In this document: one piece after another, positions 2,948 to 21,999 of the stretch | Layout: every line of letters starts with the position of its first letter | Position numbering within the stretch: position 1 is the first letter of the stretch | Source of the DNA: a virus | Strand: one strand, 5' to 3' | Length of the DNA: 21,999 nucleotides | Virus record (IMG/VR): IMGVR_UViG_3300022540_000125 | Location: 1 to 21,999 of that record | The notes under the pieces: generated by a model | Seen by the model: the letters and a program-made list of their open reading frames with translations, nothing else | Database searches by the model: none | What the model was told of the DNA's origin: nothing | Program-made: the position numbers and the translations under genes

Positions 2948-3523
2948 ATGACAGAACTTGACGCAGTAAACAAAATGTTACGTTTCGTAGGTGAATTGCC
3001 GATACCTTCATCAGTGATTATAGATGATCTACCAGAGGGACATGAAGCCAAAGACGCTAAATTAGTACTTGCAGAGCTTAATAAAGAGCTTCAAGAAAAA
3101 GGGTGGTGGTTCAATACAGAGGACTGGACATATCTTCAAGTAGAAGGATATATAACTATACCAACTACAGTGATAAGTGTTAGGAGTACTAATACTAGTG
3201 ATAAGTACTTAGTTAAAGGGAATCAGTTATATGATGTAGCTGGTCAGACTAAGATATTCACTAACGATGTAACATTAACAACAATATTTGAAGAGAGCTT
3301 TACAGAGCTCCCAAGCATCTTTGCTACCTATGTAATGTATGAATCAGCAAAACAGCTACATACCTTCTTAAATGGAGATACGTCTACTCAGAAAGATTTA
3401 GATATCCTGATAAGAAAACAGTTCATAAAAGTTGAACGAGAAGATATGTCACATAAAAGTTATAACTTGATAAAAGCTTCAAGAGTAATTGACAGAACTA
3501 CTACCCCTACACCACTATCATAA
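2948..3523 (+). CDS. Tail tubular protein A (T7 gp11-like)
   Basis: A 191-aa protein expected to form the upper ring of the short tail, between portal and nozzle. The start MTELDAVNKMLRFVGELPI matches the conserved opening of this family (LDAVN-x-ML-x-x-IGE-x-P-V). Further family-like segments are LQEKGWWFNTEDW (about residues 48-60) and a C-terminal helix region with TYVMYESAKQLHTFLNGD. Length equals T7 gp11 (196 aa) closely. AAGGA precedes the ATG. The end of this gene overlaps no other, and the nozzle gene begins 10 bases after its stop. Confidence 0.93.
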   Translation: MTELDAVNKMLRFVGELPIPSSVIIDDLPEGHEAKDAKLVLAELNKELQEKGWWFNTEDWTYLQVEGYITIPTTVISVRSTNTSDKYLVKGNQLYDVAGQTKIFTNDVTLTTIFEESFTELPSIFATYVMYESAKQLHTFLNGDTSTQKDLDILIRKQFIKVEREDMSHKSYNLIKASRVIDRTTTPTPLS

Positions 3524-3533
3524 GGAGAATAAA

Positions 3534-5702
3534 ATGGCTAAGTTTCACAAAGTGTATCCCTCTTTCTATAATGGGATCTCACAACAAGTTCCAGAATTTA
3601 TGATAGACAGTCAATGCAAGGATATGGTAAACTGTATTCCTGATATTGTTCTTGGAGCGAGTAAGAGACCTCCATCTCTATACGTAACTCATAATAATGA
3701 TCTCCCAGTAGAGTCAAAAATAGTACATGTATATGATAGAGGAGAGGATGAAGAAGAGTACGTATTTGTAGGAACTGGTGAGAGTAGTAACCCTTTACAG
3801 ATATTTAATAAGGCTGGTGTAGCTAAATCTTTAAGCTATACGGGTAATGTAACAGCCCTCAAAGCCTACCTAACAGCTAATACGATAACTAATCTAAAAG
3901 GACTAACTGTTCAAGATAGGACATTCTTAGTTAATACAGAAGAAACAGTGGGAATATCTACTGTAGCCCCTACGTCAACTATACCTACTGCTTTCTATTG
4001 GTTAAAGAGAGCCAGTGCTGATGAACTCAATGAGTTTAGATATGCAGTTTATTTAGAAGGCACTTTATTTCAAACTACTGATCATGAGTCAGATGTCGCT
4101 GTAGGAGAGTTAGCTAATCTGATTAATGCTGATGCTAGATTCACAGCAGAGTATAAAGGCACTTCTATAAGTGGTGGGAATATTATAAAAATAACTAGAT
4201 CAAACTCTGCGGATTTTACTTTTGATTCCTGGGATAGTTGGGGAAGCCAGGCATCCTTTGGGTGGAAAGGCTCAGTATCCAAACTATCAGATCTACCAGC
4301 TTCTTTAGGCTTTGATGGCACAGTAGTAGAAATTACTGGAGATGATAATAATGATTTCACTAATTACTTTGTAGAAGCTAACGTTTCATCTTGGATAGAA
4401 ACTAAAGATCCAGCAGATACAAGAGGAACGTTAGAAAATATGCCAGTAGCTTGTGACAGACAAGCAGACGGAACTTTCTTACTATCTTTTTTAGATTGGG
4501 GAACTCCTCTGGTAGGGGATGAAAACACTAACCCTAGTCCGTCCTTTATAGGTACGCAGATAAAAGATGTATTCTTCTACAAAAATAGACTAGGCTTAGC
4601 CAGTGACGCAAACATAATATTAAGTGAAACGGCTGGATATTATAACTTCTATATCAAAACAGTACTAAGTGTACTAGATACTGATCCTATAGATATCGCA
4701 CTAGCCTCAACTAAAGCTAGTAAGATCCAATATGCTAAACCTTTTCAAGGGAGTCTCTACATCTTTACTAAGGATAGTCAGTATGAATTACTTTCATCAG
4801 GGATCACCTCACCTCTTTCTGTTTCCGTAGAGATAGTTTCAAACTACCCTATGAATACAGATGTAGAGCCAGTAGTTAATGGTAACAGTCTCTTCTTTAT
4901 TAGTACTACACATAATCAGCAACAACTAAGGGAATATCGTAAAAATGAAGATACCTTAAATGTTTCTGGAATAGATCTAAACCTCTCTACTCCTACTTTA
5001 ATTGATGAGCCAATACAAAAGATCTTAATCAATGGTGTGCTTGGTTATGTGTTTTGTACTACTTTAACTAATAAAATTTACTTGTATAGTTTTAAGGATA
5101 ATAGTACAGAGAGGCTACAATCAGCCTGGGGTAAATGGACGTTCTATGAGGGACATTCAGAGATAACAGATAATAGTTTTGAATATGAGATATTAGACAA
5201 TCTATTACTTGTTGTGTATAAGTCAGGCACTCAATATACTTATAATACTGTAGAACTTGCTAAGGATGCTATATTAACAGCAGAGGGAGCACCTCTCTAT
5301 CCTAGTGAAGATCTCTATCCTAGTGAGGACTTATATCCTTCTGGCTCATCTTTCCTAGATACAACTGAATCTACTTCATTTACTTATAAGTCAGAAATTA
5401 AACTTCCAGATTGGTATCCTCATGTAGGTCAGGAGATAGGTAGTCCAAAAGATAAGGTATTAATTAAGAAAGTAACAATAGAAGGTGAAGGTCAGTTTGA
5501 TGCTCGTGTCTACAGATCTGATTATAATGTTACGTACACTAAAACACACGATTATACAACAATTAAAGACCTTGATTTACATGTTAATTCTAAGGTTGGG
5601 AGCTGTGATATATACATAAGTAATGAGACTTCATCCGATTTTAGAATAAGATCGCTAGTAGTTGAAGGTTTATATAATCCAACAAGTAAAGTACTAAGAT
5701 AA
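3534..5702 (+). CDS. Tail tubular protein B, nozzle (T7 gp12-like)
   Basis: A 722-aa protein that builds the tail nozzle through which DNA leaves and to which fibres attach. The N-terminus MAKFHKVYPSFYNGISQQVP with MVNCIPDIVLGASKRPP matches the family pattern (NGVSQQP, then cysteine- or leucine-containing GL-x-KRPP). Further in, KNRLGLASDANIILSETAGY (about residues 345-364) is another conserved nozzle stretch. An in-frame ATG exists at 3489, but that would overlap gp11 by 35 bases and has no ribosome binding site. The ATG at 3534 has AAGGAG eight bases upstream and gives the conserved N-terminus, so it is preferred. The repeated peptide LYPSEDLYPSEDLYPSG occurs at about residues 588-604. Confidence 0.93.
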   Translation: MAKFHKVYPSFYNGISQQVPEFMIDSQCKDMVNCIPDIVLGASKRPPSLYVTHNNDLPVESKIVHVYDRGEDEEEYVFVGTGESSNPLQIFNKAGVAKSLSYTGNVTALKAYLTANTITNLKGLTVQDRTFLVNTEETVGISTVAPTSTIPTAFYWLKRASADELNEFRYAVYLEGTLFQTTDHESDVAVGELANLINADARFTAEYKGTSISGGNIIKITRSNSADFTFDSWDSWGSQASFGWKGSVSKLSDLPASLGFDGTVVEITGDDNNDFTNYFVEANVSSWIETKDPADTRGTLENMPVACDRQADGTFLLSFLDWGTPLVGDENTNPSPSFIGTQIKDVFFYKNRLGLASDANIILSETAGYYNFYIKTVLSVLDTDPIDIALASTKASKIQYAKPFQGSLYIFTKDSQYELLSSGITSPLSVSVEIVSNYPMNTDVEPVVNGNSLFFISTTHNQQQLREYRKNEDTLNVSGIDLNLSTPTLIDEPIQKILINGVLGYVFCTTLTNKIYLYSFKDNSTERLQSAWGKWTFYEGHSEITDNSFEYEILDNLLLVVYKSGTQYTYNTVELAKDAILTAEGAPLYPSEDLYPSEDLYPSGSSFLDTTESTSFTYKSEIKLPDWYPHVGQEIGSPKDKVLIKKVTIEGEGQFDARVYRSDYNVTYTKTHDYTTIKDLDLHVNSKVGSCDIYISNETSSDFRIRSLVVEGLYNPTSKVLR
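5295..5345 (+). repeat. 18-bp in-frame tandem repeat in the nozzle gene
   Basis: Two and a half copies of an 18-bp unit encode LYPSED, LYPSED and LYPSG (5295-5312, 5313-5330, 5331-5345). The first two copies differ at synonymous positions only, as do parts of the third, so the peptide is conserved while the DNA has drifted. This suggests an established loop extension that is not brand-new slippage. Confidence 0.85.
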
Positions 5703-9630: not shown

Positions 9631-10122
9631 ATGCCAGTACCATTAATACCTTTAGCTATGGGCGGTTTAAGTTTGGTCGAATCTATCTTTGGAGGAGCAC
9701 AAGCAGAAGAAAATGCTAAATTACAAGCTGAACAAGCTTATAGAAATCTCGGAATAAAAGTTAATAGTCTAAAGCAGACAGCAGAGGAACTCAACCGCCA
9801 GACTGGTATGGAGCTTACTGATGCTAAGTTTAAAGAAATGGAAGCAGTTTCTTCTATAGCTGGACATCAAGCGGAATCTGGTATAGTTGGGAACACATCT
9901 CAAAGGATAGCAAACTCAATTGAGATCAAAGGGATGAAATTTAGAAACCAGATCAAACAGAGAGCAGAGGCAAATACCGTAAAGGTACAAACAGAGATGA
10001 GGAACGCTGTTACTAATTACCAATCACAAATGGTTAGTATAGCAACTGATTACGAAAATGATACGGACTCTGGTTTTGGCATGTTAGCTAAAGCTGGTAC
10101 AGTATATTACGAAGCACTTTAA
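9631..10122 (+). CDS. Internal virion (ejection) protein, T7 gp14-like
   Basis: A 163-aa protein, in size near T7 gp14 (196 aa). It opens with a hydrophobic Gly/Leu/Ala segment (LIPLAMGGLSLVESIFGGAQAE) that could insert into the outer membrane, followed by a long Gln/Glu/Ala-rich amphipathic helix. This is the architecture of gp14-type core proteins, which leave the capsid on infection and help form the conduit through the cell envelope. GHQAESGIVGNTSQRI (about residues 75-90) resembles the conserved GASGVxGxS segment of this family. It heads the three-gene ejection block, and TAGGAG precedes the ATG. A strong terminator-like hairpin upstream suggests the block has its own promoter, which I could not identify. 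Confidence 0.82.
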   Translation: MPVPLIPLAMGGLSLVESIFGGAQAEENAKLQAEQAYRNLGIKVNSLKQTAEELNRQTGMELTDAKFKEMEAVSSIAGHQAESGIVGNTSQRIANSIEIKGMKFRNQIKQRAEANTVKVQTEMRNAVTNYQSQMVSIATDYENDTDSGFGMLAKAGTVYYEAL

Positions 10123-10132
10123 AGGAGACTAA

Positions 10133-13100
10133 ATGGTAGATTTTGGATATACACCAGAAATAGGACAAGTAACTGGGTATACTGCTCAGATTGGAGTTAA
10201 GAGTAAAGTAGCTGGACTAGCTGGAGATATCAGTAGCTTACTTATGGCTAAGAAAGTCTCAGATGTTAGAGTAGCTAAAGCAGAAGCTAAGTACTTAGAT
10301 GATGAAGCTAAAGAGCGTATGAATGATGCTCAGCTTAATATCATGGAACTACAAGATAAACTTTATGAGGATTATAATACTACAGCAGATCCAGAAGCTA
10401 GAAATAGATTCGTTCAAGAGTTTGAAGATAATGCGACTAAAGTAGGTGGTTACTATAACATCGAAGGTGATGATCTTGTTACGCTTACAAAAGGTTATAA
10501 AGGTACAACAAATAAACTAAGACTATATAATTCAAATGTAGTCGGGAAAGTAAACGATACGGTAAACGTATCTAAAGCTAATACAGCAGACTTCGCTACT
10601 ATGGATGTAGCAAATACAAAAGAAATGGATTCTACTATACTTTCTAACAATAAAGACTACTTAATCAAAACTGAGTTTGGTGGGAATAAAGCTAAATATT
10701 TTGATGCTAAGTTTACTGACTACGGTGTGCGACTAAAAGAATCTGTAGCTGAAACTTCTTCTCCAGAAGAGATTGATATACTATTGAATAACCTGGATAT
10801 ATTTGCTAAAGAGAAACTGGGTGATATAGTATCAGTGAATAATAAAGATGTTACAGTTGATAGTACTATGTATAATGGTTATCATAAGAACAGACAATTT
10901 CTATTAGAGAAGAGAGCTACAGCTATAACTAAACTTAAAGCTACTCTACCTCAACATATTAAGGGTAGGAATAAAGATGCTTATATGGCAACTATTGAGA
11001 GAGTGGCTAAGGTGGGGGGATTTGAGAATCCAGATTTAAAACAATCAGCTATCGACTCTTGGGATCTTAAGACTGAGAAAGCAAATACGTCTAAGATCAA
11101 TGCTATGAAGAAACAACCTGACTATGTAGCTGGGTATGTTGATCCTAGTTTAGTCGAGACTACTTATAAGGCTCATGGTGGAACTGATGAACAGTTTATT
11201 ATTGACTATAAAACTAAACACGATTTTACTCAAAACTACCTTACTAATCCTATTAATACTGACTTATCAGCGAACCCTAAACAAGCTAAAATAGTTGCAG
11301 ATGATGTTATTAAAAAGTTGGTACTCTCAGGAGATGTTGCTACAGCAGTAGATATGGCTGGTAAAACTGGACAAGGTGGAGTAATTAACTCCTTTACTAC
11401 CTCAGCCCTAAGTGAGGAAGATCCTAAAATACTTACTCAAAACGTCAATAAGGTTCTGGAAGGTTACTATACTAATCAAAGTGTTATGAGTAATAACATG
11501 GAGAAAGATGATAAATCGGCTATGTTCTTCTACGCTTACCAGATGAGAAGAGGGGGAGAACTTACAGAAGGGCATATTGACAGAGTTAAACAAGGTAATG
11601 CGGAAGGAATCATACAAAAAGCTGGAAAAGAGTTTAATGAGGAATTTGCTGGTAAATCAAATTACACAGAGAATATCGGAATCTACTCAGCTTTAATTAA
11701 ATATGGTGTACCGCCACAGACAGCCGTTGACTACATCAAGGAAGATACAGAAGCTCATATTGTTAGTGTTAGCTCTGGATTATTTACTTCTATGGATGTT
11801 GATATGAGAGGTGCTCCTAACGGTGTGCAGACTTATGACACTGAACAGTTAGAAGAGGTACTTGCTCCTTTAGTTGATAAAGTTGATAAGATTGGTATCG
11901 AAGGGGATAAGAAACTTGTTTATGATAAATCTACTGGAGACTTTAGATTATTTGTAGATGAAGTCCCTATGCAAGATATGGCAGTGAACTTAGATGATCT
12001 TATTAAGTACAAACAAAAAGCAGACTTAGCTGTGGAAAAAGGTGCTTGGGCGACTACAACTAGGAAAGTAGAAGCTATCTGGGATTCATTTATGACTGGA
12101 ACTAGTGAAGCTATTAGAGACGTTTTTACTGAGATTGATAGACTTGAACACGAATATAAAAAACAACAGTCCTACGAAGGAGTAATACGACTTACTACAA
12201 ACAAAGCTCTTAAGGCTGAAACTAAAAATAAAGCTTTAGCAGAAGAAGCAGAGGCTAAGAAAGCTATAGAGAGTGATCCAGCTTATGTTGAATCAACTAT
12301 GGAAGTAGCTCTTAATAGCAGAGAAAATGCTACGGCATTATTTAATAAGGATGGTATAAATGATTATATTAATTTTCTTAACAGTAACTTTTCAACAATA
12401 CTTACGCAACCGTTGATCGTAAGTGAAGATGGTAGAGCTATAGTAGATAAGACTAAAAGTGTAGATGTTACCAACCCAAACGGAAGAGAGAAACTTAAAA
12501 CTATTATCAAAGATAAACAAGCTATTAATAATACAGTAACTAAGGTTATTGAAGAAGCCCCTATAGCCTCTAAACCTATCCTAAGTAATTTAGTTAATAA
12601 TATGGAGGCTATTAGAGTAGCCGAAGTAGGGGATAAAATATTTAAAGAAGGGCAACTACACGTAGGTCAAGAGACTATTACCCCAGCAAACCCTAAAGGC
12701 ACTAAGAATACTACAAGGTATGGAGTAGTTATTACAAATTTCCCTAAAATAGGTAAAGAGACTGACTATGATCATGCGGTACGTTACTACACTAAGAATG
12801 TACTCCCAGCAATAGAGAATGTTAAAGGGATAGAAACAGCCTCAGAGAACACTATAACAGCCTTATCTAAACTTGTTTGGAACAAAGGTAATATTATTAA
12901 AAAGTTAGATCTTAATGATCAAGCTGGAACAATATCTACTTTACTAGATGTAACAACAACAAGCGGTAAACATAGTAATGGTGTTATCAATAGAACGATA
13001 CAAGATTATGGACAACTAGCTACTGAGTTAGGTTATCCACAAGTGGCTTTTGTTGAGACAACTCCTCCTAAGAGTGGTAAGTATAGAATCCAGTACTTTG

Positions 13101-13231
13101 ATAAAGAGGGTAAACTAATCCATGATGATGCCAGAACAGCTACAACTGCTCCTGGATCAACTATAGGGGCTAATAAGAGGTATATTGTTAGGAATAATAG
13201 TATAGATATAAGATCAGGTATTGATAAATAA
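10133..13231 (+). CDS. Internal virion (ejection) protein, T7 gp15-like, with C-terminal lysozyme-like domain
   Basis: A 1032-aa protein at the gp15 position of the ejection block, larger than T7 gp15 (747 aa). Most of it is Lys/Asp/Asn-rich and helical, fitting a core protein that forms part of the DNA-ejection tube. The extra length is mainly C-terminal. Residues about 825-965 read like a GH24/GH108-type muramidase: IFKEGQ with a candidate catalytic Glu839, then ANPKGTKNTTRYGV (like the DPGG-x-TN-YGI motif), then a helix with TALSKLVWNKGNI (like the AL-x-x-x-x-FN-x-G motif), then TSGKHSNGVINRTIQDYGQL (like GK-x-x-x-GL-x-x-RR-x-x-E). Such an enzyme would open the cell wall for the tube. AAAGGAG precedes the ATG. 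The domain call is by eye and needs a profile search. Confidence 0.8.
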   Translation: MVDFGYTPEIGQVTGYTAQIGVKSKVAGLAGDISSLLMAKKVSDVRVAKAEAKYLDDEAKERMNDAQLNIMELQDKLYEDYNTTADPEARNRFVQEFEDNATKVGGYYNIEGDDLVTLTKGYKGTTNKLRLYNSNVVGKVNDTVNVSKANTADFATMDVANTKEMDSTILSNNKDYLIKTEFGGNKAKYFDAKFTDYGVRLKESVAETSSPEEIDILLNNLDIFAKEKLGDIVSVNNKDVTVDSTMYNGYHKNRQFLLEKRATAITKLKATLPQHIKGRNKDAYMATIERVAKVGGFENPDLKQSAIDSWDLKTEKANTSKINAMKKQPDYVAGYVDPSLVETTYKAHGGTDEQFIIDYKTKHDFTQNYLTNPINTDLSANPKQAKIVADDVIKKLVLSGDVATAVDMAGKTGQGGVINSFTTSALSEEDPKILTQNVNKVLEGYYTNQSVMSNNMEKDDKSAMFFYAYQMRRGGELTEGHIDRVKQGNAEGIIQKAGKEFNEEFAGKSNYTENIGIYSALIKYGVPPQTAVDYIKEDTEAHIVSVSSGLFTSMDVDMRGAPNGVQTYDTEQLEEVLAPLVDKVDKIGIEGDKKLVYDKSTGDFRLFVDEVPMQDMAVNLDDLIKYKQKADLAVEKGAWATTTRKVEAIWDSFMTGTSEAIRDVFTEIDRLEHEYKKQQSYEGVIRLTTNKALKAETKNKALAEEAEAKKAIESDPAYVESTMEVALNSRENATALFNKDGINDYINFLNSNFSTILTQPLIVSEDGRAIVDKTKSVDVTNPNGREKLKTIIKDKQAINNTVTKVIEEAPIASKPILSNLVNNMEAIRVAEVGDKIFKEGQLHVGQETITPANPKGTKNTTRYGVVITNFPKIGKETDYDHAVRYYTKNVLPAIENVKGIETASENTITALSKLVWNKGNIIKKLDLNDQAGTISTLLDVTTTSGKHSNGVINRTIQDYGQLATELGYPQVAFVETTPPKSGKYRIQYFDKEGKLIHDDARTATTAPGSTIGANKRYIVRNNSIDIRSGIDK

Positions 13232-13240
13232 GGAGATTAA

Positions 13241-16200
13241 ATGGCAGATGTTATAACAGATGAGAATATATTTGAAAGAGTAGAGGAGGTTACAGCTAAG
13301 TATGCTGAACCTGATCGCTTTGAAGAAGATTTTAGTAAAGACTTAGCTTCTGCCTTTAGGCTAACTGCTAATGGTGCGTATCTTTTTGCGGATCAGAAGT
13401 ATCAAATACCAGGAAACGATAGAGATCCTAGCTTTAAACATAATTCACAACAGACACAAGATCTCTATAAGAAGTATGCAATAGATGATATAAAACAAAC
13501 TGAATTTTATGATAGTATCAATGAAGCTCACCTAACAGCTAGACTAGAAAGAAATAAACTACGTAGAGAAGATAAAGCTAGATTACAAGAGGAACAACCT
13601 ATAGCACAGTACCCTATTATGATGGCAACCTCTATGGCAGATCTTCCTTCAATGTTAGCTATGCCTTTAGGTTATAAGTTTCTAGGTGGCATCAAGATGT
13701 TAAGAGATGCTTCACGTACAAATAATGCAATCAAAGCTGGTACTACTGTGACTCTTTCTAACACAGCTAGTGAATATATGATACAAGCTTCTGCTGATGA
13801 TGTCGACTCAGATGAGTTACAAGCAGTTGCTTTAATGTCTGGACTAATTGGAGGAGGGCTAGGCACACTACTACCACATACTAGATCTAATCAGCGATAT
13901 GCTGATGAAGATGGACTAACTCCATTTGATAAAGTTAATAAAGAGATGCGAGGACTTAGTGTTACTACCGAGAAAGATTTGAAGTTTCATGCTGACATGC
14001 TTAATGGTACTGACGACTTTGCTCACATCGATAGTGGCTTCAAAGGTAGGATAGAAAGTTTTGCTGGTAAATTTACCTGGAGTCCTATCGCTAGGATGTA
14101 TAAGTCTAAGAATCCAATAGTAATTGGAGTGGCTAATGCCTCTGAGCATAGTCCTCTAGCACTCACAGCAAAAGGTAAACTACAAACTGGATCTCCAATT
14201 AAAGCAACTAATACTAAAATGAATCTCAATGGTTTATATAGTAAGTTCATGAGACAGACTGGAGAACATTATAAGAAAGCTCAGGTAGAAAACCCTGATC
14301 TCGAACTACCTCAGTACATGAAAGGACTTGGTGACGACTATCGTACAAGACTTAAAGAGATAGATGATGAGGCAGTGCAACGCTTCTCAGAGATACATAC
14401 TGATGAACTACAACTACTCGACCAATATGAAACCTATGTAGGTAAACCACCTATGAAGATCGTTGACGATATAGATGCTGAGGGTGTCCCTATTAAGAGA
14501 GAAGAGTTTGATACTGAGTTGATGGAAGAGAACTTGATCAATGCTTATATTAAAGAGATTGAAACTGCTAAAGAGTTACCAACTCAATTAAAACCTATTA
14601 GAGATTACTACGAACAATATCAGAAGTTTGGTGAAAAAGTAGAACACTCTAGCTTTATTGGAAGAAATGGGAGAGCTTATATTGGTAGAATGTTTGACAA
14701 AGAACATATCGAAGATTTAGGTTTTCAGAGAGCTTCTGATCAAATGTATGAAGCGTTGATGGGCTCTTCTCGTAACAAACTGACTATCTCTTCTATGCTT
14801 AGAGATGGGGCTACTGAGGAACAGATCACAAAACTATTTAGAAAAGAAGCTGAGGGAGCAATCAGTAAGATTATGAGTTCAAGTATTTATACTGACCTAG
14901 ACTTCAAATCCGTAACAAGTACAAGTGCTTTAAAGAAACGTAGGCTTCACTTAGATGAACAAGTAGCTGGTGATTTGATTATCAGAGATGTAGGTAATAT
15001 AGCGGAAGGCTATAACCATAAGATCTCAGGAAAACTTGCTATGAAGAAACACTTAGGACTAGAGAGTATGGAAGATATTTCAGCTCTTAAGAAACGTATT
15101 GAGGATAAAGGTAGAGAGCTTGGACATACTCCAGCAGAAATTACTAAAGACTTGAAAAACGTACAGATCATCCTAGACTCACTTAATAGTACTAGAGGAT
15201 TAGCAACTGATCCAAACTCCTGGTTAGAAACATTTTCTCGTAGATTCCAGAAGTTTAACTATGTAACACTTGGTGGGGAGTTTGCGATCAATACACTTGG
15301 AGAAATTGGTAATGCAGTAGGTACAAATGGATTGAGAGTCTTTAAACACCTTGTCCCAGCAGTACAAGAAACTATTAATATGTATAAACGTAGGCCATTG
15401 AAAAAGACTACTAATGACTTATTGGGTATGGGGTTAATTGAACAGATCTACAGAAGTAATAGAGTACAGCGTTATGATGCACTTGATACTATCCACTCTA
15501 AAGGTAAGGCTGATGCTATTCTTGATAGATGGTCAAATAAAATGTCTGACTTATCTGGATTGAACTTTGTTACCTCAGCCTTAGAAATGATGGTACACTC
15601 TTCTACTCTCAATGATCTTTCAGATTTAGCTAATGCTACTAAACTTTCAAAGACACAGAGTAAAAGACTATCAAGATTAGGACTTACTACTGACGACCTA
15701 GCTCAATTCAAAGCACAAAATAAAATTGAGTATGATGAGAAAGGACACTTAATAAACTATAACTTTGATAAGTGGACTGACCTAGGTTTCGTAGATAAGA
15801 TCAGAGCAACAGTTCAAACTAATGTTAATGAAGCTGTCCTCCAGGGTGATATCACTAGACTCCCAGCCTTCGCTACTACAAGTAATCCTTTAGCTAAGTT
15901 AGCTTTACAGTTTATGAGATTTCCTATCCAAGCTCACGAATATATCTTCTTGAAAACTCTGGATGAAATGGATGCACGTAAAGCTATGGGTATAGTTACA
16001 ACTATTGGTGTAATGGGATCGTTCTACACACTAAGAGAACAAGCTTTAATCCAAGCTGGTTTCATGAAAGAAGAAAATCAGAAGTATACTTGGGATGAAG
16101 AGGGCTTTGCAAATATGGCTCAAAGACTTGGTACAAAACTACCGCAAATGGGAGTTGGATATACTGTAGCTGATATGGCTAATAAGATGTTTAACCCAGA

Positions 16201-16408
16201 GGCTAAGACTTATGGGGAAGATCCTATATCTACTTTTAGTGGACTAGGTAAGAGAGTAAATGATGCAGTTAAGTTCGGTAAAGACGTTATAGAAGATGGT
16301 GAACTCACTGATTCTAATCAACGGGCTATGCACTACTGGCTACCATTCTACAATCTCTTCTACATTAAACCTATTACAGACATGATCACAGAAGGAGAGA
16401 CACGATAA
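13241..16408 (+). CDS. Internal virion (ejection) protein, T7 gp16-like, lacking the SLT domain
   Basis: A 1055-aa protein at the gp16 position, shorter than T7 gp16 (1318 aa). Its C-terminal third contains ATTSNPLAKLALQFMRFP (LQFMRFP at about 890-896) followed by a hydrophobic Gly/Val/Ile helix (about 918-935), a pattern I recognise from large gp16-type proteins. Residues 130-220 include several hydrophobic Gly/Ala/Leu segments (YPIMMATSMADLPSMLAMPL), perhaps membrane-active. The N-terminus starts directly with an acidic helical region, and no lytic transglycosylase motif (ES-x-x-P-x-A-x-S) is visible. Gp16 lines and extends the ejection conduit in the inner membrane. The AAGGAG before the ATG is good. 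The stop overlaps the TerS start (TAATG at 16406-16410). Confidence 0.82.
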   Translation: MADVITDENIFERVEEVTAKYAEPDRFEEDFSKDLASAFRLTANGAYLFADQKYQIPGNDRDPSFKHNSQQTQDLYKKYAIDDIKQTEFYDSINEAHLTARLERNKLRREDKARLQEEQPIAQYPIMMATSMADLPSMLAMPLGYKFLGGIKMLRDASRTNNAIKAGTTVTLSNTASEYMIQASADDVDSDELQAVALMSGLIGGGLGTLLPHTRSNQRYADEDGLTPFDKVNKEMRGLSVTTEKDLKFHADMLNGTDDFAHIDSGFKGRIESFAGKFTWSPIARMYKSKNPIVIGVANASEHSPLALTAKGKLQTGSPIKATNTKMNLNGLYSKFMRQTGEHYKKAQVENPDLELPQYMKGLGDDYRTRLKEIDDEAVQRFSEIHTDELQLLDQYETYVGKPPMKIVDDIDAEGVPIKREEFDTELMEENLINAYIKEIETAKELPTQLKPIRDYYEQYQKFGEKVEHSSFIGRNGRAYIGRMFDKEHIEDLGFQRASDQMYEALMGSSRNKLTISSMLRDGATEEQITKLFRKEAEGAISKIMSSSIYTDLDFKSVTSTSALKKRRLHLDEQVAGDLIIRDVGNIAEGYNHKISGKLAMKKHLGLESMEDISALKKRIEDKGRELGHTPAEITKDLKNVQIILDSLNSTRGLATDPNSWLETFSRRFQKFNYVTLGGEFAINTLGEIGNAVGTNGLRVFKHLVPAVQETINMYKRRPLKKTTNDLLGMGLIEQIYRSNRVQRYDALDTIHSKGKADAILDRWSNKMSDLSGLNFVTSALEMMVHSSTLNDLSDLANATKLSKTQSKRLSRLGLTTDDLAQFKAQNKIEYDEKGHLINYNFDKWTDLGFVDKIRATVQTNVNEAVLQGDITRLPAFATTSNPLAKLALQFMRFPIQAHEYIFLKTLDEMDARKAMGIVTTIGVMGSFYTLREQALIQAGFMKEENQKYTWDEEGFANMAQRLGTKLPQMGVGYTVADMANKMFNPEAKTYGEDPISTFSGLGKRVNDAVKFGKDVIEDGELTDSNQRAMHYWLPFYNLFYIKPITDMITEGETR

Positions 16409-16746
16409 TGGAAATACTAAAGGGAAAAGCTACTACAGCAGAACTGGATAACCTCCACAACACTGTAGCTAGAGTTATAAGTGATGAGCTTATCTCACAG
16501 ACTAAAGAAGTTACATATCGTGATGAAGAATCTGGAGAAGAAACAGTTGAGAGAGGGATGGTAGATACTAAGTTACTCGGTCAAGCCATCGCCTTTCTTA
16601 AGAACAACAATATCACAGCAGATGTACTTGAAAATGATAAGATGCGATCCCTTGCAGAAGATATTAAGGCGATTGCTAATAAAGAGAATGAGATCAAAGA
16701 TATATCTGTAGAGGATATGTTAGCGATAGCTGAGAAAGCAAATTAA
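16408..16746 (+). CDS. Small terminase subunit, DNA maturase A (T7 gp18-like)
   Basis: A 112-aa, mostly helical acidic protein. The segment TKLLGQAIAFLKNNNITADV (about residues 54-73) is characteristic of podovirus small terminases, where a leucine-rich helix is followed by FLKDNNI-x-AD. The N-terminal part (ELDNLHNTVARVISDELISQ) precedes an acidic turn (RDEESGEETVERG). The oligomeric small subunit recognises concatemeric DNA and regulates the ATPase of the large subunit. Its ATG overlaps the gp16-like stop, so it is probably coupled. The large subunit is separated from it by one small gene, as in T7 where lysis genes lie between 18 and 19. Confidence 0.85.
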   Translation: MEILKGKATTAELDNLHNTVARVISDELISQTKEVTYRDEESGEETVERGMVDTKLLGQAIAFLKNNNITADVLENDKMRSLAEDIKAIANKENEIKDISVEDMLAIAEKAN

Positions 16747-16760
16747 AATAAGGAATAAAG

Positions 16761-17066
16761 ATGATAATTGATAATGAAGTACTGGCAGTACAAGCCTATA
16801 AAGCGTTCTCGCCAGAGAAAAGAACTAATAACCATACGGTACAAGTAAACATTGATGCTACAACTACAGCCATTACTGTTTCACTCGCTCAATCACTAGA
16901 CGGAGTAGAATATAAAACCATAGATACTCATGTCTTTGATGCAGGAGAGCTTGTTGCTGATTCTGCAATCTTTACAGTACAGAATATACCAGCTCGATAT
17001 CTTAGATTGAGTGTAGATAGTTTTACTGGTGATGGTAACATCTCAGCTTACTACGAAGGATCGTAG
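16761..17066 (+). CDS. Unrecognised beta-rich protein between terminase genes
   Basis: A 101-aa protein with no signal peptide or membrane segment. It alternates hydrophobic and polar residues as in a small beta-sandwich: HTVQVNIDATTTAITVSLAQ, then SLDGVEYKTIDTHVFDAGE, then FTVQNIPARYLRLSVDSFTG and a final NISAYYEG strand. The SLDG-x-x-(Y/W)-x-x-I and AR-Y-L-R-L segments resemble small phage structural or decoration modules often annotated as hypothetical in phage genomes. In T7 the same interval carries spanins; this protein has no lipobox or TM and cannot be a spanin. A head decoration or fibre component is possible. AAGGAATAAAG lies before the ATG. It is followed by a terminator. Confidence 0.75.
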   Translation: MIIDNEVLAVQAYKAFSPEKRTNNHTVQVNIDATTTAITVSLAQSLDGVEYKTIDTHVFDAGELVADSAIFTVQNIPARYLRLSVDSFTGDGNISAYYEGS

Positions 17067-17079
17067 AGCGTTTATTGAG

Positions 17080-17112
17080 CCAAGGTAGGCAATCAGTCGC
17101 CTTGGTTTTATT
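17080..17112 (+). terminator. Rho-independent terminator before the large terminase gene
   Basis: CCAAGG (17080-17085) pairs with CCTTGG (17100-17105) around a 14-nt loop and is followed by TTTTATT (17106-17112). It lies between the 101-aa gene and TerL, so TerL is either transcribed by read-through or from a promoter in the 42 bases that remain before its start. Confidence 0.68.
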
Positions 17113-17154
17113 AAGCCCTTATAAGCTAACCTTGTACCATCTAAAGGAGATTAA

Positions 17155-18966
17155 ATGGAACAAACAATAATGCTGGAGTACAGCGAAGCACAAGAGCTAC
17201 AGAAACAGCGTGAGCTAATGGAACAAGCTATAGCTATGTCAGATCCAGAGCACATGTCAACTAACGAGATTGAAGGCTGTATTCAGGACTTTAGAGTATT
17301 TCTGATGCACTTATGGAGACATTTACGACTTCCAGCTCCTACTAGGATGCAGTTATACATCGCTGATTACCTCCAACAAGGACATAAGCGTTCACAGCTC
17401 GAAGCATTGAGAGGTATCGGTAAGACTTGGATCACTGGTGGCTTTGTTGCCTGGAGATTATTACGAGATCCTAATGAAAAGGTACTGATAGTATCGCAAT
17501 CGGGTGGACATGCTGAGGCTATTGCTATCTTTATTAAGAAGATCATCCATACTATGCCTCTATTAGAGCATCTAAAAGCTAGATCTGATCAGAAAGATGC
17601 CACTACAGCCTTTGATGTTGATGGATGTCAGGTTACAGTACAACCTTCTGTTAAAGCTTTAGGTATTACTTCACAACTTCAAGGGAACAGAGCTACACTT
17701 TTGGTATCAGATGATGTTGAAGGTAAGCAGAATAGTGCTACGGAAGTTATGAGAGCTAAACTTATAGAGGCTGTAGCTGAGTATGAAGCAATTTTACAAA
17801 CAGATGAGAAGTCTCAGATCCTAGTACTTGGTACACCTCAGTCTAGTGAGTCAATCTACAACAACCTACGTGACAAAGGTTATATTACAAGGATCTTCCC
17901 AGCTCGTTATCCAGCTATGGTAGATAACTATGAAGGATGCCTGGCAGAATACATATTAGAGGACATGGCTCTACACCCAGAGCTAGTCGGTTTACCGTGT
18001 GATAGTAGGTTTACTGATGCTGACCTTATTGCTAGAGAGTTATCCTATGGGTTATCTGGGTTTAAGCTCCAGTATATGCTAGATACTACTCTATCTGACT
18101 CTGAAAAGTATCCTCTTAAGCTCTCTGATCTAATTGTAACAGACCTAGAACCTACTAAAGCCCCTTCTAGCCTCTCCTGGACATCTCATCCTTCTTCTAT
18201 TATAACTGATATACCTAATATTGGGTTCACTGGAGATCGATTACATCGTCCTGGGGTTATATCTGAGGACTTAATTAACTATGAAGGTAAGATATTAGCT
18301 ATCGATCCCTCTGGTAGAGGTTCAGATGAGACTGGTGGAGCCGTTGTTAATCACTTACATGGTAAGATCTTGTGTCCTTGGATTGGTCATTGGGATGGAG
18401 GCTATGAACCAGAGACATTAATCAAGATGGCAGAGACAGCTAAGAAGTATGAAGTCGAACTGATTGTGATTGAGAGCAACTTTGGTGATGGTATGTTTAG
18501 TAAACTACTACAGCCCGTACTTAATGCTATTTACCCTTGTACTATTGAAGAGATCCATAATAGTATACAGAAAGAGAAAAGGATCATTGATACACTAGAG
18601 CCATTAATGAATCAACATAGACTTGTAGTAGATTATAGTAATATGAAAGATGATGTTAGAAAGGCTCTCTCTGAGGGAACTACTAATAAAACTCTACCTT
18701 ACTCACTACTATTCCAAATGACTCACATTACCAAAGACCGTAACTCGTTACAACATGATGATAGATTGGATGCTCTAACTATTGGTGTACAGTATTGGAA
18801 TGAGAAGAACATCTTAAAGCAAGATAGTAATATAGCAGTGGCTATGTATAATAAGAAGTTGATTCAAGATGAACTTGATCGTAGAGCCCAGCTCTTTAAA
18901 CGTGCTAGTAACCATAGACCTAAAGTAAGAGGTGCTATTGGAACTATTAAAGCCTTTAGAAGATAA
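17155..18966 (+). CDS. Large terminase subunit, DNA maturase B (T7 gp19-like)
   Basis: A 603-aa packaging motor (T7 gp19: 586 aa) that cuts concatemeric DNA and pumps it into the procapsid. The ATPase half has a Walker A-like loop LRGIGKTW (Arg86 to Thr91), a Walker B strand TLLVSDDVE (181-189; Asp186, Asp187, Glu189 region) and a coupling motif VLGTPQS (224-230). The nuclease half shows the RNase H-like acid clusters: AIDPSGRGSDETG (Asp384), LIVIESNFGDG (Glu440) and HDDRLDAL (Asp535, Asp536, Asp539). All expected motifs are intact. AAAGGAG lies before the ATG. It is the last late gene before the non-coding junction, as gene 19 is near the right end of T7. The last 50 residues are basic. Confidence 0.96.
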   Translation: MEQTIMLEYSEAQELQKQRELMEQAIAMSDPEHMSTNEIEGCIQDFRVFLMHLWRHLRLPAPTRMQLYIADYLQQGHKRSQLEALRGIGKTWITGGFVAWRLLRDPNEKVLIVSQSGGHAEAIAIFIKKIIHTMPLLEHLKARSDQKDATTAFDVDGCQVTVQPSVKALGITSQLQGNRATLLVSDDVEGKQNSATEVMRAKLIEAVAEYEAILQTDEKSQILVLGTPQSSESIYNNLRDKGYITRIFPARYPAMVDNYEGCLAEYILEDMALHPELVGLPCDSRFTDADLIARELSYGLSGFKLQYMLDTTLSDSEKYPLKLSDLIVTDLEPTKAPSSLSWTSHPSSIITDIPNIGFTGDRLHRPGVISEDLINYEGKILAIDPSGRGSDETGGAVVNHLHGKILCPWIGHWDGGYEPETLIKMAETAKKYEVELIVIESNFGDGMFSKLLQPVLNAIYPCTIEEIHNSIQKEKRIIDTLEPLMNQHRLVVDYSNMKDDVRKALSEGTTNKTLPYSLLFQMTHITKDRNSLQHDDRLDALTIGVQYWNEKNILKQDSNIAVAMYNKKLIQDELDRRAQLFKRASNHRPKVRGAIGTIKAFRR

Positions 18967-18976
18967 CTACTTATAT

Positions 18977-19021
18977 CCTTTAGTTACCATGTGAATAACT
19001 ACATGTGAATAACTCTAAAGG
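18977..19021 (+). repeat. Tandem 14-bp repeat enclosed by a 7-bp inverted repeat
   Basis: CATGTGAATAACT occurs at 18988-19000 and 19002-19014 (period 14). It is flanked by CCTTTAG (18977-18983) and CTAAAGG (19015-19021), which are perfect complements and could close a stem-loop. It starts 11 bases after the terminase stop. There is no U-tract, so it is not an ordinary terminator. Another hairpin, ACATC/GATGT (19028-19032/19040-19044), follows immediately. Confidence 0.8.
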
Positions 19022-19089
19022 GTAAGGACATCTATAGACGATGTACTAGGAGTTTACCTACCTAAAACATTGAGTTATACTGCATTAAT

Positions 19090-19180
19090 AGGGGAGAGAG
19101 AGGGTTATCTGTACTGTATTTATAACACTATTTGCTATCTGTTATCAGATACTTATGTTCGATATATGTACAGTTCCCCT
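19090..19180. repeat. Three-tier nested palindrome
   Basis: AGGGG (19090-19094) pairs with CCCCT (19176-19180), CTGTAC (19109-19114) with GTACAG (19168-19173), and TATCTG (19136-19141) with CAGATA (19146-19151) around a TTAT loop. All three are co-axial on one centre region, spanning 91 bp, with unpaired stretches between tiers. It may extrude as a cruciform or act in end processing or replication. Confidence 0.6.
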
Positions 19181-19228
19181 AACCCACTACTCCTACCTAC
19201 TTATATAACTATTAATACCTCTACTTTC

Positions 19229-19684
19229 CAACCTTGAGCCACTTACACTCAACCCTACCCCTTACATTTATAACCTGATCACTCTTGGTATAGTTAACGT
19301 TCTACAGTTAGTTATTTGACTTGTGTTGACTAGCGATCTTGCAAGGTTTCTAAAAATATTGAAAAAATGTGAGGGGGTATCATATAACATCTAGCACCAG
19401 TTTTCCCCCGTTACCCCTTCTTTCGCCAACCTTTAGTCACATACGCTCAACTATCCTTATAACTCCTCACTCAACCTTACTTACTCCCTTATTTATTGCA
19501 AACTTGAGTCACTTACACTCAACTTACATGAGCTTATAATACTCAACTAACGGTTATTTAACTGTTTTAGTATAGTTTAGTCACCTACACTCAACTTAGT
19601 TTAGTCTATGTTAGTCAACTGTTGCTTAAGTACTCAAATACAAATTTTTAACTTTTAACCTTTAGCGTACCTCACTCAACCTTA
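19229..19684 (+). repeat. Array of dyad elements, consensus TTKAGTCACNTACACTCAAC
   Basis: Full copies, with a C/A-rich lead-in, lie at about 19229-19254, 19427-19451, 19499-19526, 19574-19599 and 19657-19684. Partial copies sharing ACTCAAC or GTCAAC lie at 19468-19479, 19541-19547 and near 19600-19620. Start-to-start spacing is about 198, 72, 75 and 83 bp. The best copy (19504-19522) is a true dyad: TTGAGT, 7-nt spacer, ACTCAA. The others keep the right half better than the left. The array looks like protein-binding iterons. Candidate roles are terminase or concatemer-processing sites (T7 has short repeat arrays beside its terminal repeat), replication sites or phage-polymerase promoters. Confidence 0.8.
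19373..19417. repeat. G5/C5 inverted repeat inside the array region
   Basis: GGGGG (19373-19377) can pair with CCCCC (19405-19409), or in another register GGGGTA (19374-19379) with TACCCC (19412-19417). It is the most GC-rich spot in an AT-rich intergenic region and falls in the 172-bp gap between the first and second dyad elements. Confidence 0.55.
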
Positions 19685-19777
19685 TATCTAACTTTTCTTT
19701 TTACGCATATATAATGTAAGTAAACCAGATCCTCATACAATTCTTTTAACAAATTAACATCTTTTTATCTAAAACCC

Positions 19778-19806
19778 TTGACATTCATTTAAAACCATGT
19801 TATAAT
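19778..19806 (+). promoter_or_regulatory. Early promoter 1: consensus sigma70 promoter
   Basis: TTGACA (19778-19783), a spacer of exactly 17 bp, and TATAAT (19801-19806) preceded by TG one base further up (TGTTATAAT, extended -10). Both hexamers are perfect. Transcription would run rightward towards the early genes and start near 19812-19814. By position it corresponds to the first of the T7 A-promoters, which the host polymerase uses right after infection. Confidence 0.92.
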
Positions 19807-19875
19807 ACTCCCATATAAGCAGATAGTTTGTTTATAAGTTCTTTAATATCTTTTTAAATGTTCTGTTAACGTGCC

Positions 19876-19902
19876 CTTACTTTAAGGTTAACATGTTACA
19901 AT
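19876..19902 (+). promoter_or_regulatory. Early promoter 2: extended -10 promoter with palindrome
   Basis: TGTTACAAT (19894-19902) is an extended -10 box with a 5/6 TATAAT match. The -35 region is poor (CTTACT at 19876-19881, short spacing). The 25-bp block 19879-19903 repeats at 20052-20076 with one mismatch and contains the palindrome TAACATGTTA overlapping the -10 box. The extended -10 may compensate for the weak -35. Confidence 0.55.
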
Positions 19903-20076
19903 TACATTATCTTTAAATATTAAGTGTTACTCTTAAGGAGTGATTAGTCTTGATTAAGTGATTATAGCTCATAGTTAGCATACATAATCGTTATACTTAT
20001 GACATAAGAGTTACTTAAACAAATTTTTAAAGGTGGTCAAACTGTAGCTTAACTTTAAGGTTAACATGTTATAATT
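19879..20076 (+). repeat. 25-bp direct repeat carrying an operator-like palindrome
   Basis: The blocks 19879-19903 and 20052-20076 differ at one base (TTACAAT versus TTATAAT) and are 173 bp apart. Each contains GTTAAC and the 10-bp palindrome TAACATGTTA, which overlaps the -10 region. Binding of a dimeric regulator there would block both promoters together. Promoter 1 shares only the ATGTTATAAT end. Confidence 0.82.
20049..20075 (+). promoter_or_regulatory. Early promoter 3: extended -10 promoter with palindrome
   Basis: TGTTATAAT (20067-20075) is a perfect extended -10 box. TTAACT (20049-20054) is a moderate -35 at 15-bp spacing. It lies about 25 bases before the first early ATG, so its mRNA leader would be short and include the AAGGAG site. 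It shares the GGTTAACATGTTAYAAT core with promoter 2. Confidence 0.72.
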
Positions 20077-20100
20077 TAACATGACAAATAAGGAGTCAAA

Positions 20101-20226
20101 ATGTTTAAACTGTACATTGAAGAGAGTAACGGAGTAGAGGTATTAGTTGGAGTCATAAACTCCTTAGACGAGGCTATAGCAGAGGGTGACACCTACGAGG
20201 GCTATGAGTTTAGTATATACAAGTAG
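20101..20226 (+). CDS. Hypothetical early protein, 41 aa
   Basis: A short acidic protein (MFKLYIEESNGVEVLVGVIN then SLDEAIAEGDTYEGYEFSIYK), the first gene after the early promoters. It has a strong ribosome binding site, AAGGAG, five bases before the ATG. The pattern of a beta hairpin, an SLDEAI helix and a final strand suggests a compact alpha/beta fold. It is followed after nine bases by another early gene. Position alone suggests expression immediately after infection, where T7 encodes its anti-restriction protein gp0.3. Size and sequence give no basis for equating the two. Confidence 0.78.
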   Translation: MFKLYIEESNGVEVLVGVINSLDEAIAEGDTYEGYEFSIYK

Positions 20227-20235
20227 GAGTGAATT

Positions 20236-20511
20236 ATGAACAAGTTAAAATGTAACGGAATGAATGATAGTTATGAGGTGTTAAATGTTTGGTTAAATAA
20301 ACCGAATGGGAATGGATTATATTTAGTGAGGCACAGAGGCACTGGTAATGTAAAGTTAGTAGAGGTCTATGATAACGGTTATTTAACCTCTTGGTTCACT
20401 GTATATGAGAATGATACCTTTAGTAACGATTTAGGCTATTGTAGAAATATAATGAGAAGTAAAGTTGAGGTAGCGATTAGATATGCTAGAAAACATGGAT
20501 TTGAACTGTAA
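20236..20511 (+). CDS. Hypothetical early protein, 91 aa
   Basis: Second early gene, with TAGGAG eight bases before the ATG. The protein alternates strands and turns (NGLYLVRHRGTGNVKLVEVY, then NGYLTSWFTVYEND) and ends with a basic helix (SKVEVAIRYARKHGFEL), which suggests a small beta-barrel with a C-terminal helix. It has two cysteines (Cys6 and Cys69) and no recognisable catalytic motif. I do not recognise the family. Early phage proteins of this size often bind and inhibit a host protein. That is inference from position. Confidence 0.82.
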   Translation: MNKLKCNGMNDSYEVLNVWLNKPNGNGLYLVRHRGTGNVKLVEVYDNGYLTSWFTVYENDTFSNDLGYCRNIMRSKVEVAIRYARKHGFEL

Positions 20512-20521
20512 AGGAAGTATA

Positions 20522-20647
20522 ATGTATCGAATAATTGCGAATGACATGGTAGTAGCATCTACTAGGGATTATGATGTAGCGGTTAGCTTAGTGAGTCTAC
20601 TAGCTAAGAGTTTAGAGTGTGACACGTACATGGCAAAGGATGTGTAA
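20522..20647 (+). CDS. Hypothetical early protein, 41 aa
   Basis: A short reading frame (MYRIIANDMVVASTRDYDVA then VSLVSLLAKSLECDTYMAKDV) with AAGGA five to nine bases before the ATG at 20522. Its TAA overlaps the ATG of the next gene (TAATG at 20645-20649), a strong sign that both are translated. The sequence pattern, two strands followed by one amphipathic helix, is similar in size and layout to the first 41-aa early protein, although the residues do not align convincingly. Function unknown. Confidence 0.72.
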   Translation: MYRIIANDMVVASTRDYDVAVSLVSLLAKSLECDTYMAKDV

Positions 20648-20856
20648 TGAGAAACTATGGAATTAAACCGTGTAGGCACTGTGGTAATCCAGTGACGGGA
20701 TACTATGACGCTAAAGATGTGACTATGTACTGTAGTAGGGCTAAATGTGGTAAGATAGAAGATAACGGAAGCTTCACAAATAAGAGTAAAGCAAGTACAG
20801 TGAAGTCAGATAAGGCTTTTAAGAGACAACTAAACTTAGATAGCAGAGGGTATTAA
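20647..20856 (+). CDS. Small zinc-ribbon-like early protein, 69 aa
   Basis: The N-terminal half carries PCRHCG (Cys9, Cys12) and MYCSRAKCG (Cys29, Cys34), a CxxC plus CxxxxC set that could bind one zinc ion, as in zinc ribbons of small nucleic-acid or protein-binding phage factors. The C-terminal half is Lys/Ser-rich and basic (NKSKASTVKSDKAFKRQLNL), fitting DNA or RNA contact. The start overlaps the preceding stop, so it is coupled. It might act on host polymerase or a nuclease, but nothing in the sequence shows the target. The next gene begins one base after its stop. Confidence 0.82.
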   Translation: MRNYGIKPCRHCGNPVTGYYDAKDVTMYCSRAKCGKIEDNGSFTNKSKASTVKSDKAFKRQLNLDSRGY

Positions 20857-20857
20857 C

Positions 20858-21583
20858 ATGAAAAAGAATGAGAGAGATGCACTGTATTACAGATACTACT
20901 ACAAGTTTCAATGCTTGTTAGCTAGAGATCTAAACTATAATGATATGATTAGTGAGACTGAGCCCATAGCTGGTAATGGCGTGAGAAAAGAGAGTAGTTT
21001 ACCATTTACATTAAATGACTGTGCTCATGATATGGCTGGTATACAGTGTGGACATGATGTAAATAAGAGTCACTTTAGTTTATCTAAATGGGAGACGCTT
21101 AGAGCTCATCCTTGGATTGAAAAGATCAGAGATCATGATATGCACCGTTTAAGGGTTGAGGAGTGTTATAAAGAGACCTATCATGTATATTTGAATAGGC
21201 TTAAGGATGATAAAAGATCCTTTTTAGATGATATTGTAGAGGCTGAGTACTACTATATAGCTGTAGATGGGGCTGGAGTAGTGCATGGAGGATTTGCTAC
21301 CACTAAGAGAGGGTATCTAACGGGCTTATTCTCCTTATCAAAAGGGAGAGGTAACGAGATCTTCAAACTGAGACTTCAAACGGCTAGAAAAGATCTTGAT
21401 GCAAGCGTGAAACAGTTTAGGATCTTTTGTACTGGAGACTTTTTAAGAGAGTTCTATGGAGAATGGGGCTTTAGAGTTACGGATGTAGTAGAGTGGGAAG
21501 ATAAATTTGCTCCTAAAGGATGGGACTATACTAAAAATGGTAGGCCTACTCTGTATAATATGGAGAAAAGTACCCAGTTTTAA
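20858..21583 (+). CDS. Early protein with GNAT-like acetyltransferase C-terminal half
   Basis: A 241-aa protein. Residues 1-125 are rich in Tyr, Cys, His and charged residues and unrecognised. Residues about 128-235 follow the GNAT order: a strand (YYYIAVD), GG-x-x-x turn, strand GYLTGLFSL, then SKGRGNEIFKLRLQTA with Gly163 and Gly165 as the acetyl-CoA pyrophosphate loop, then strand FRIFCTG, then FLREFYGEWGFRV (199-207 like the FYE-x-x-GFR motif). The loop departs from the usual Q/R-x-x-G-x-G at its first position. Such early enzymes can modify host proteins, RNases or DNA. The substrate cannot be read from sequence. An AGGG-type site precedes the ATG. Confidence 0.8.
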   Translation: MKKNERDALYYRYYYKFQCLLARDLNYNDMISETEPIAGNGVRKESSLPFTLNDCAHDMAGIQCGHDVNKSHFSLSKWETLRAHPWIEKIRDHDMHRLRVEECYKETYHVYLNRLKDDKRSFLDDIVEAEYYYIAVDGAGVVHGGFATTKRGYLTGLFSLSKGRGNEIFKLRLQTARKDLDASVKQFRIFCTGDFLREFYGEWGFRVTDVVEWEDKFAPKGWDYTKNGRPTLYNMEKSTQF

Positions 21584-21636
21584 TGAGGGGTATAAGAAAT
21601 TTAAGATATAAGTAGATACATACAAAGGAGTATAAG

Positions 21637-21672
21637 ATGGGTAAACTTTATAAACAAAAAAGATTTCTTTAA
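21637..21672 (+). CDS. Possible 11-residue leader peptide or frameshift start
   Basis: ATG at 21637 has an excellent ribosome binding site (AAAGGAG, 21625-21631) and encodes MGKLYKQKRFL before TAA at 21670-21672. The next ATG, of the 84-aa gene, starts one base after that stop and has no good site of its own. The peptide is therefore either a leader that delivers ribosomes to the next start, or the true N-terminus of the next protein joined by a +1 shift at CTT-TAA. Confidence 0.4.
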   Translation: MGKLYKQKRFL

Positions 21673-21673
21673 T

Positions 21674-21928
21674 ATGGGATATAATGTATATGGTAACTAT
21701 AAAGATGAAAGAACAGAGCCTAGAGACTGGAAAGAAAGTAAACATACTTTAGAGTATGATAAAGAGATTAAAAAGTACATAACCTTCAATGGAAGTGAGA
21801 TACGAAAGTTTGATGATATCGAGGATGCACTTGATCAGCTTGAAGCTAGATGGATGGGTGAGATCACAAATAGAAAAGAAGTTGTAGACTCTTTTAATGA
21901 ACATATCAAAGGAGATCAAGATGAGTAA
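21674..21928 (+). CDS. Hypothetical acidic early protein, 84 aa
   Basis: MGYNVYGNYKDERTEPRDW is followed by a strand-like KKYITFNGSEIRKFDD and a strongly acidic helix (IEDALDQLEARWMGEITNRK) ending in HIKGDQDE. It is soluble, has no cysteine and shows no known motif. Acidic helical early proteins include DNA mimics and host-factor binders, but that is only a possibility. Its start lacks a clear ribosome binding site and lies directly behind the 11-codon frame. Its end overlaps the start of the following gene by eight bases, with AAAGGAG inside this gene serving the next. Confidence 0.68.
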   Translation: MGYNVYGNYKDERTEPRDWKESKHTLEYDKEIKKYITFNGSEIRKFDDIEDALDQLEARWMGEITNRKEVVDSFNEHIKGDQDE

Positions 21929-21999
21929 CTTTTTAAAACAATTAGCTATACTAGCTTTAGAACATGGTTTCACTGTGACTTTAGATCGTGATAATAAGA
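21921..21999 (+). CDS. Hypothetical early protein, 5' end only
   Basis: ATG at 21921 with AAAGGAG seven bases upstream; the frame stays open to the right edge and gives 26 residues (MSNFLKQLAILALEHGFTVT then LDRDNK). The start looks like an amphipathic helix followed by a strand. No family can be assigned from so little sequence. Confidence 0.65.
   Translation, partial: MSNFLKQLAILALEHGFTVTLDRDNK

Follow-up and report, generated by a model that had tools for sequence, protein, structure and literature searches.

The window, i.e. the whole stretch of 21,999 nucleotides analyzed here, is a genome fragment in which Pfam matches revealed a T7-like setting of T7 capsid assembly, Gp10A-like capsid, gp14-like, pectate-lyase-type tail, DNA packaging and terminase proteins. 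A gene encoding a protein of 1032 amino acids is flanked by genes for a gp14-like and a gp16-like ejection protein (Table 1), which is the gene order of a T7-type gp15. Since the 1032-aa protein matched no PHROG or Pfam family, including any gp15 family, the designation "gp15-like" refers to gene position alone. The original prediction had assigned a lysozyme-like domain to the C-terminal end of this protein. Its coordinates for the reading frame and the motifs were accurate, as KEG (with E839), NTTRYGV (residues 859-865), TALSKLVWNKG (909-919) and GKHSNGVINRT (945-955) were all located at the positions given. A second public contig (L003) is 100% identical to positions 13979-21999 of the window (8021 bases) and continues the same phage genome past the window end. 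The tail ORF at 3489-5702 is listed with a TTG start codon, an internal ATG (MAKFHKVYPSF...) being the likelier start.

Table 1. Features of the ejection protein locus and of the corresponding domain in a sister phage (L001)
Feature	Position	Strand	Basis
gp14-like ejection protein	9631..10122	+	PF24072 (T7_gp14), E 7.1e-14, match at 9631-10119
gp15-position ejection protein, 1032 aa	10133..13231	+	place between T7_gp14 match and gp16-like protein
C-terminal segment, aa ~796-1032, swapped cassette, wholly different from nearest relatives	12518..13231	+	tblastn end at 795, DNA identity drop
Putative lysozyme N-lobe, aa 825-865, with candidates E825, E831, E839 and the NTTRYGV string	12605..12727	+	register varies between alignments
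GH24-like C-lobe, aa ~899-960, TALSKLVWNKG ... GKHSNGVINRT	12827..13012	+	custom-profile searches
Tail region, aa ~961-1010, aligned with the segment after the lysozyme in SP6-type gp36	13013..13162	+	slotS profile match aa 935-998, borderline
gp16-like ejection protein, 1055 aa, SLT-free	13241..16408	+	phrog_342, E 1.1e-68
GH73 domain of the L001 gp15-position protein	L001:10425-10814		PF01832

The gp16-like protein matched phrog_342 with residues 22-1051 on profile positions 216-1224 of 1235 (E 1.1e-68), the match beginning no earlier than position 216. An SLT domain was detected in this protein neither with Pfam at E<=1 nor by a six-frame search at E<=10. The controls were positive: T7 gp16 showed the domain at residues 15-127 (E 1.7e-31, Pfam), and in the Rhizobium phage TRX32-1, a relative found via the gp16-like protein, it was located at residues 8-85 of the gp16-like protein. 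The statement that the gp16-like protein of this phage carries no SLT domain was thus correct, and a recognized hydrolase of this type, which would have spoken against the original prediction, did not emerge. Six-frame searches for SLT and PF00959 were negative in all four records, two of the window's phage and two of its sisters, while PF01832 was found in two of the four, both from the sisters and neither from the window's phage. Elsewhere in the window record, itself a fragment, SLT, PF00959 and PF01832 were not found.

Close relatives among viral contigs were L001 and L002. The two share 99.8% identity across 5866 aligned positions and are therefore effectively one lineage. Their gp15-position proteins are 57% and 56% identical to that of the window by alignment, and their gp16-like protein is 72% identical over its whole length. 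The tblastn match of the 1032-aa protein to both contigs, however, stops at residue 795. At the DNA level, identity to L001 in bins of 150 bases amounted to 57-75% in 15 of the 16 bins up to position 12532, the remaining bin (0.37) lying at a protein-level gap; it dropped to 19-41% with gaps at 12533-13132 and was 53-84% across the gp16-like gene. The G+C content of the swapped segment is the same as in the rest of the gene (0.353 each). In the slot of the window's C-terminus, L001 possesses a PF01832 glucosaminidase domain (residues 809-938 of 939, E 8.6e-16), which is FlgJ-like by PDB sequence (4.4e-11) with an aligned ETG motif, and L002 has a PF01832 domain at the end of its gp15-position ORF as well. 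An enzyme cassette at the C-terminus of the gp15-position protein has thus been exchanged between the window phage and its sisters. The domains share the slot and the flanking proteins (57% and 72% identity) but not the family, since the window domain is GH24-like instead of a glucosaminidase. The presence of GH73 in the slot of the sisters supports a wall-hydrolase role of the window domain.

For the last ~230 residues of the window protein, searches of Pfam (E<=1), NCBIfam (E<=1) and PDB sequences returned nothing beyond chance rows; the PDB phmmer rows were all designed proteins. PF00959 was not detected in the window at E<=1 with Pfam or at E<=10 in six frames. Because the curated profiles were silent, profiles were built from fetched sequences. 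A joint profile of 10 phage GH24 endolysins, SP6 gp36 and phiEa1H gave an hhalign score of 28.4 (P 6.5e-4) with residues 812-975, compared with maxima of 17.0 among 160 natural decoys and 18.0 among 150 shuffles. A deeper joint profile was made of 26 endolysins, retained from 90 by mutual identity under 75% and a length of at least 110 aa, together with six sequences that are SP6-type or related to these. It yielded a probability of 54% (P 1.3e-4) in hhalign and a score of 17.7 bits in hmmsearch, where E was 1.1e-7 for a single comparison. When 299 ORFs were ranked by this profile, only six real or likely lysozymes stood above the window domain, namely SP6 gp36, P22 gp19, phiKMV gp45, T4 gp5, T4 e and an ORF of L020, with phiKMV gp36 just below (14.9 bits, hmmsearch); the scores of the ranked lysozymes are not independent as some of them are in the profile, while the window domain and phiKMV gp36 are outside it. 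The best unrelated ORF, the window's own capsid protein, attained 10.0 bits and the best reported shuffle 3.4 bits (of 1000 shuffles, hmmsearch reported 783, 778 and 800). The endolysin-only profile gave no separation, the unrelated capsid protein scoring 11.4 bits versus 10.5 for the window domain, and with the profile of SP6-type sequences only (slotS) the domain reached 12.5 bits, one shuffle in 1000 scoring 12.8. In pairwise comparison the domain showed a z of 9.6 with an endolysin (L126), the best of 32 comparisons, and none of 200 shuffles was as high. The register of the C-lobe was identical in all six MAFFT runs. Judged by these profiles, residues ~899-960 are GH24-like above chance, although the separation in hmmsearch needs the joint profile.

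The likeness to GH24 and GH108 muramidases that had been proposed for the whole domain therefore holds in part. It is GH24-like in the C-lobe; the first half, which contains KEG and NTTRYGV and would be expected to hold the catalytic residues, was not matched reliably. For GH108 (PF05838) there was no Pfam match and the hhalign score, obtained with a profile consisting of a single sequence, lay within the decoys; the same applied to the pesticin type (PF16754) with a profile of two sequences. GH108 was not adopted as the family. A T4-type lysozyme profile gave no signal on the domain by hhalign. Close relatives of the domain alone were not found among the viral contigs or phages searched, the alignment-driven scans A1 and A2 recovered the known sisters only, and a genome_contigs scan with the gp16-like protein returned no relative. 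Some isolated matches were taken as chance: a MotB-like regulator PHROG on the domain slice (E 0.0015), phrog_1671, a 28-residue match inside an unrelated protein of 2004 aa (L005), a tape measure protein whose sequence is coiled-coil-like by eye (H41), and H42. As the curated profile was silent and the candidate active-site residues shift with the alignment, the domain is not filed as a member of GH24.

The N-lobe aligned differently from run to run and provided no reliable match. In one register, E825 and D834, which show x8 spacing, coincide with the columns that hold Glu and Asp in GH24; in the hhalign register there is no Glu in the Glu column, and in one register Asn853, not Asp, lies near the Asp position. 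The original prediction had named Glu839 as the catalytic residue. This assignment is not adopted, as E825, E831 and E839 are all candidates and the register shifts with the alignment. If the Glu of the window domain were displaced, this would have a parallel, since SP6 gp36 and phiEa1H have Ala in the usual GH24 Glu column and a conserved Glu upstream. In SP6-type gp36 (L027:5750-6550, L040:1-846) this Glu sits as if displaced by an insertion.

Structure prediction, which had been suggested as a check, yielded models of insufficient confidence to judge the fold. A single-sequence model of the domain had a mean pLDDT of 39. A second model, for which homologue rows were given for the C-lobe and tail but none for the N-lobe, reached 60.5 and revealed a helix, two strands and then helices, the helix and the two strands lying in the putative N-lobe of this low-confidence model. 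Foldseek found no PDB match to this model at E<=0.001. Lysozymes or lysozyme fusions made up 13 of 50 rows in the VIA list, with 97-118 residues aligned at Z 2.5-4.8, values under what the tool regards as meaningful; the top Z of 5.6 belonged to pantothenate synthetases, whose alignments span 64-78 residues in the C-lobe and tail. The 50 rows are without GH108, which is not counted against that family. Due to the homologue rows supplied for the C-lobe and tail, the structure comparison is partly circular. The best fold match in the viral library, the lysozyme of Erwinia phage S2 (E 2e-3), was discarded as circular because L048, taken as that phage, was an alignment row.

Two other explanations have to be weighed against a functional muramidase. 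The domain might be a lysozyme-fold pseudo-enzyme derived from GH24, with the C-lobe retained and the active site gone, serving only as a glycan binder or as a structural adaptor where the tunnel protein ends, while another protein cuts the wall. The unrecognizable N-lobe and the lack of a stable Glu/Asp/Thr set fit this idea, and so does the appearance among the VIA neighbours of the second model of the SpmX muramidase domain (6h9d), which we take to be a scaffold. On the other hand, the sisters keep a conventional GH73 domain with an ETG motif in the slot, suggesting selection for cutting, and the SLT, PF00959 and PF01832 searches of the remaining window fragment uncovered no protein to take over this task. 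We thus consider a pseudo-enzyme unlikely. It is quite improbable that the likeness to GH24 over ~60 residues arose by chance in a different wall hydrolase or in a non-enzymatic domain of unknown fold. The silence of the curated families would be explained in this way, as would the 10.0-11.4 bits of the unrelated capsid protein with two of the same profiles and a fold comparison under significance, but neither the distance between 17.7 bits and the best unrelated of 299 ORFs nor the result with 160 decoys is readily reconciled with chance, and the match sits in a domain occupying a hydrolase slot.

Hence, the C-terminal ~230 residues are probably a muramidase module, GH24-like but divergent and broadly similar in type to those of SP6 and phiKMV gp36, which is inserted at an exchangeable slot and opens peptidoglycan at entry. 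Going by likeness of sequence, an entry muramidase is the most likely function. If it adopts a full lysozyme fold and is active, the module would be carried in the virion together with the ejection proteins, enter the periplasm alongside them and cut a local peptidoglycan hole for the DNA channel. The presumed task is that of T7 gp16, whose SLT domain would be the counterpart, but in T7 this domain resides at the N-terminus of gp16, while the window module belongs to another family and is part of another ejection protein.

Gp15-like ejection proteins bearing a lysozyme have been described for phiKMV, SP6 and K1E/K1-5, and the window represents a divergent further case. A 2017 review (PMC5380687) lists phiKMV gp36, SP6 gp36 and K1-5 gp38 as virion lysozymes, places the lysozyme domain of phiKMV at the C-terminus and reports phiKMV gp36 as active. 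A 2022 review (PMC8954989) states that some gp15-like homologues (K1E, K1-5) contain the lysozyme activity which T7 has on its gp16, and describes the swapping of domains among ejection proteins as thematic. With these reports the central idea of the original prediction was already in print, and its wording that the activity "moved" to another ejection protein with a different chemistry is too strong as history. What stands is that the gp15-position protein has a C-lobe resembling GH24, that the gp16-like protein is SLT-free and that the sisters have GH73 in the slot; the different chemistry is putative. SP6 gp36 has PF00959 at residues 770-905 of 978 (E 6.6e-10). Like this protein, K1E gp35 and the phiEa1H relatives, the window protein occupies the gp15 position with a putative GH24-type domain near the C-terminus and a putative short tail after it, and the partner in SP6 (gp37) is likewise without a Pfam SLT. 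Unlike SP6 gp36, the window domain has no PF00959 match and an unstable N-lobe alignment. It shares with phiKMV gp36 the gp15 position, a C-terminal (in the window putative) muramidase and the failure to match Pfam (phiKMV gp36 none at E<=0.1). However, gp36C of phiKMV matches T4-type lysozymes, which the window domain does not. The window contributes a putative virion lysozyme that is strongly diverged, attached to a tunnel-forming ejection protein and missed by curated profiles.

The new and most interesting point is the apparent swap between muramidase and glucosaminidase at the same site, the muramidase side of which is suggested by sequence likeness. Among the open-licence papers searched, none describing a glucosaminidase on a gp15-type ejection protein was found; the available text of PMC11172527 mentions glucosaminidase in a general sentence only. 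It is conceivable, though here we lean slightly towards doubt, that the gp15-like C-terminus is a true plug-in site at which closely related phages trade entire wall hydrolases that differ in bond specificity (GH24-like versus GH73). Recombination at a fixed boundary would then adapt entry to the host peptidoglycan and leave the ejection machine otherwise as it is. The sister pair constitutes a natural experiment, as the gp15 body and gp16 are alike and the wall enzyme differs, which makes the contribution of the enzyme type comparable in closely related proteins.

Eleven more distant relatives were scanned, comprising eight of 71 phage records and three viral contigs, the latter being those of six new distant loci with both genes complete. 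Three of the 11 revealed a Pfam hydrolase on the gp15-position protein and one an SLT domain on the gp16-like protein. In the Pelagibacter phages Bylgja (L012:6559-8418) and HTVC134P (L017:6400-8259), the protein before gp16 has an N-terminal pesticin domain (PF16754, E 2.5e-41 and 8e-39), and phage ctHz2215 (L015:4964-7429) harbors GH108 in the middle of its gp15-position protein (PF05838, E 2.1e-14). The gp15-position protein of Vibrio phage CKB-S2 (L013:644-2785) is annotated as a lytic transglycosylase, yet it gave no Pfam hydrolase match. In L020, an ORF of 137 aa on the plus strand upstream of the gp15-position gene is GH24 lysozyme-like (33 bits with the joint profile) and is perhaps an endolysin within the structural gene block.
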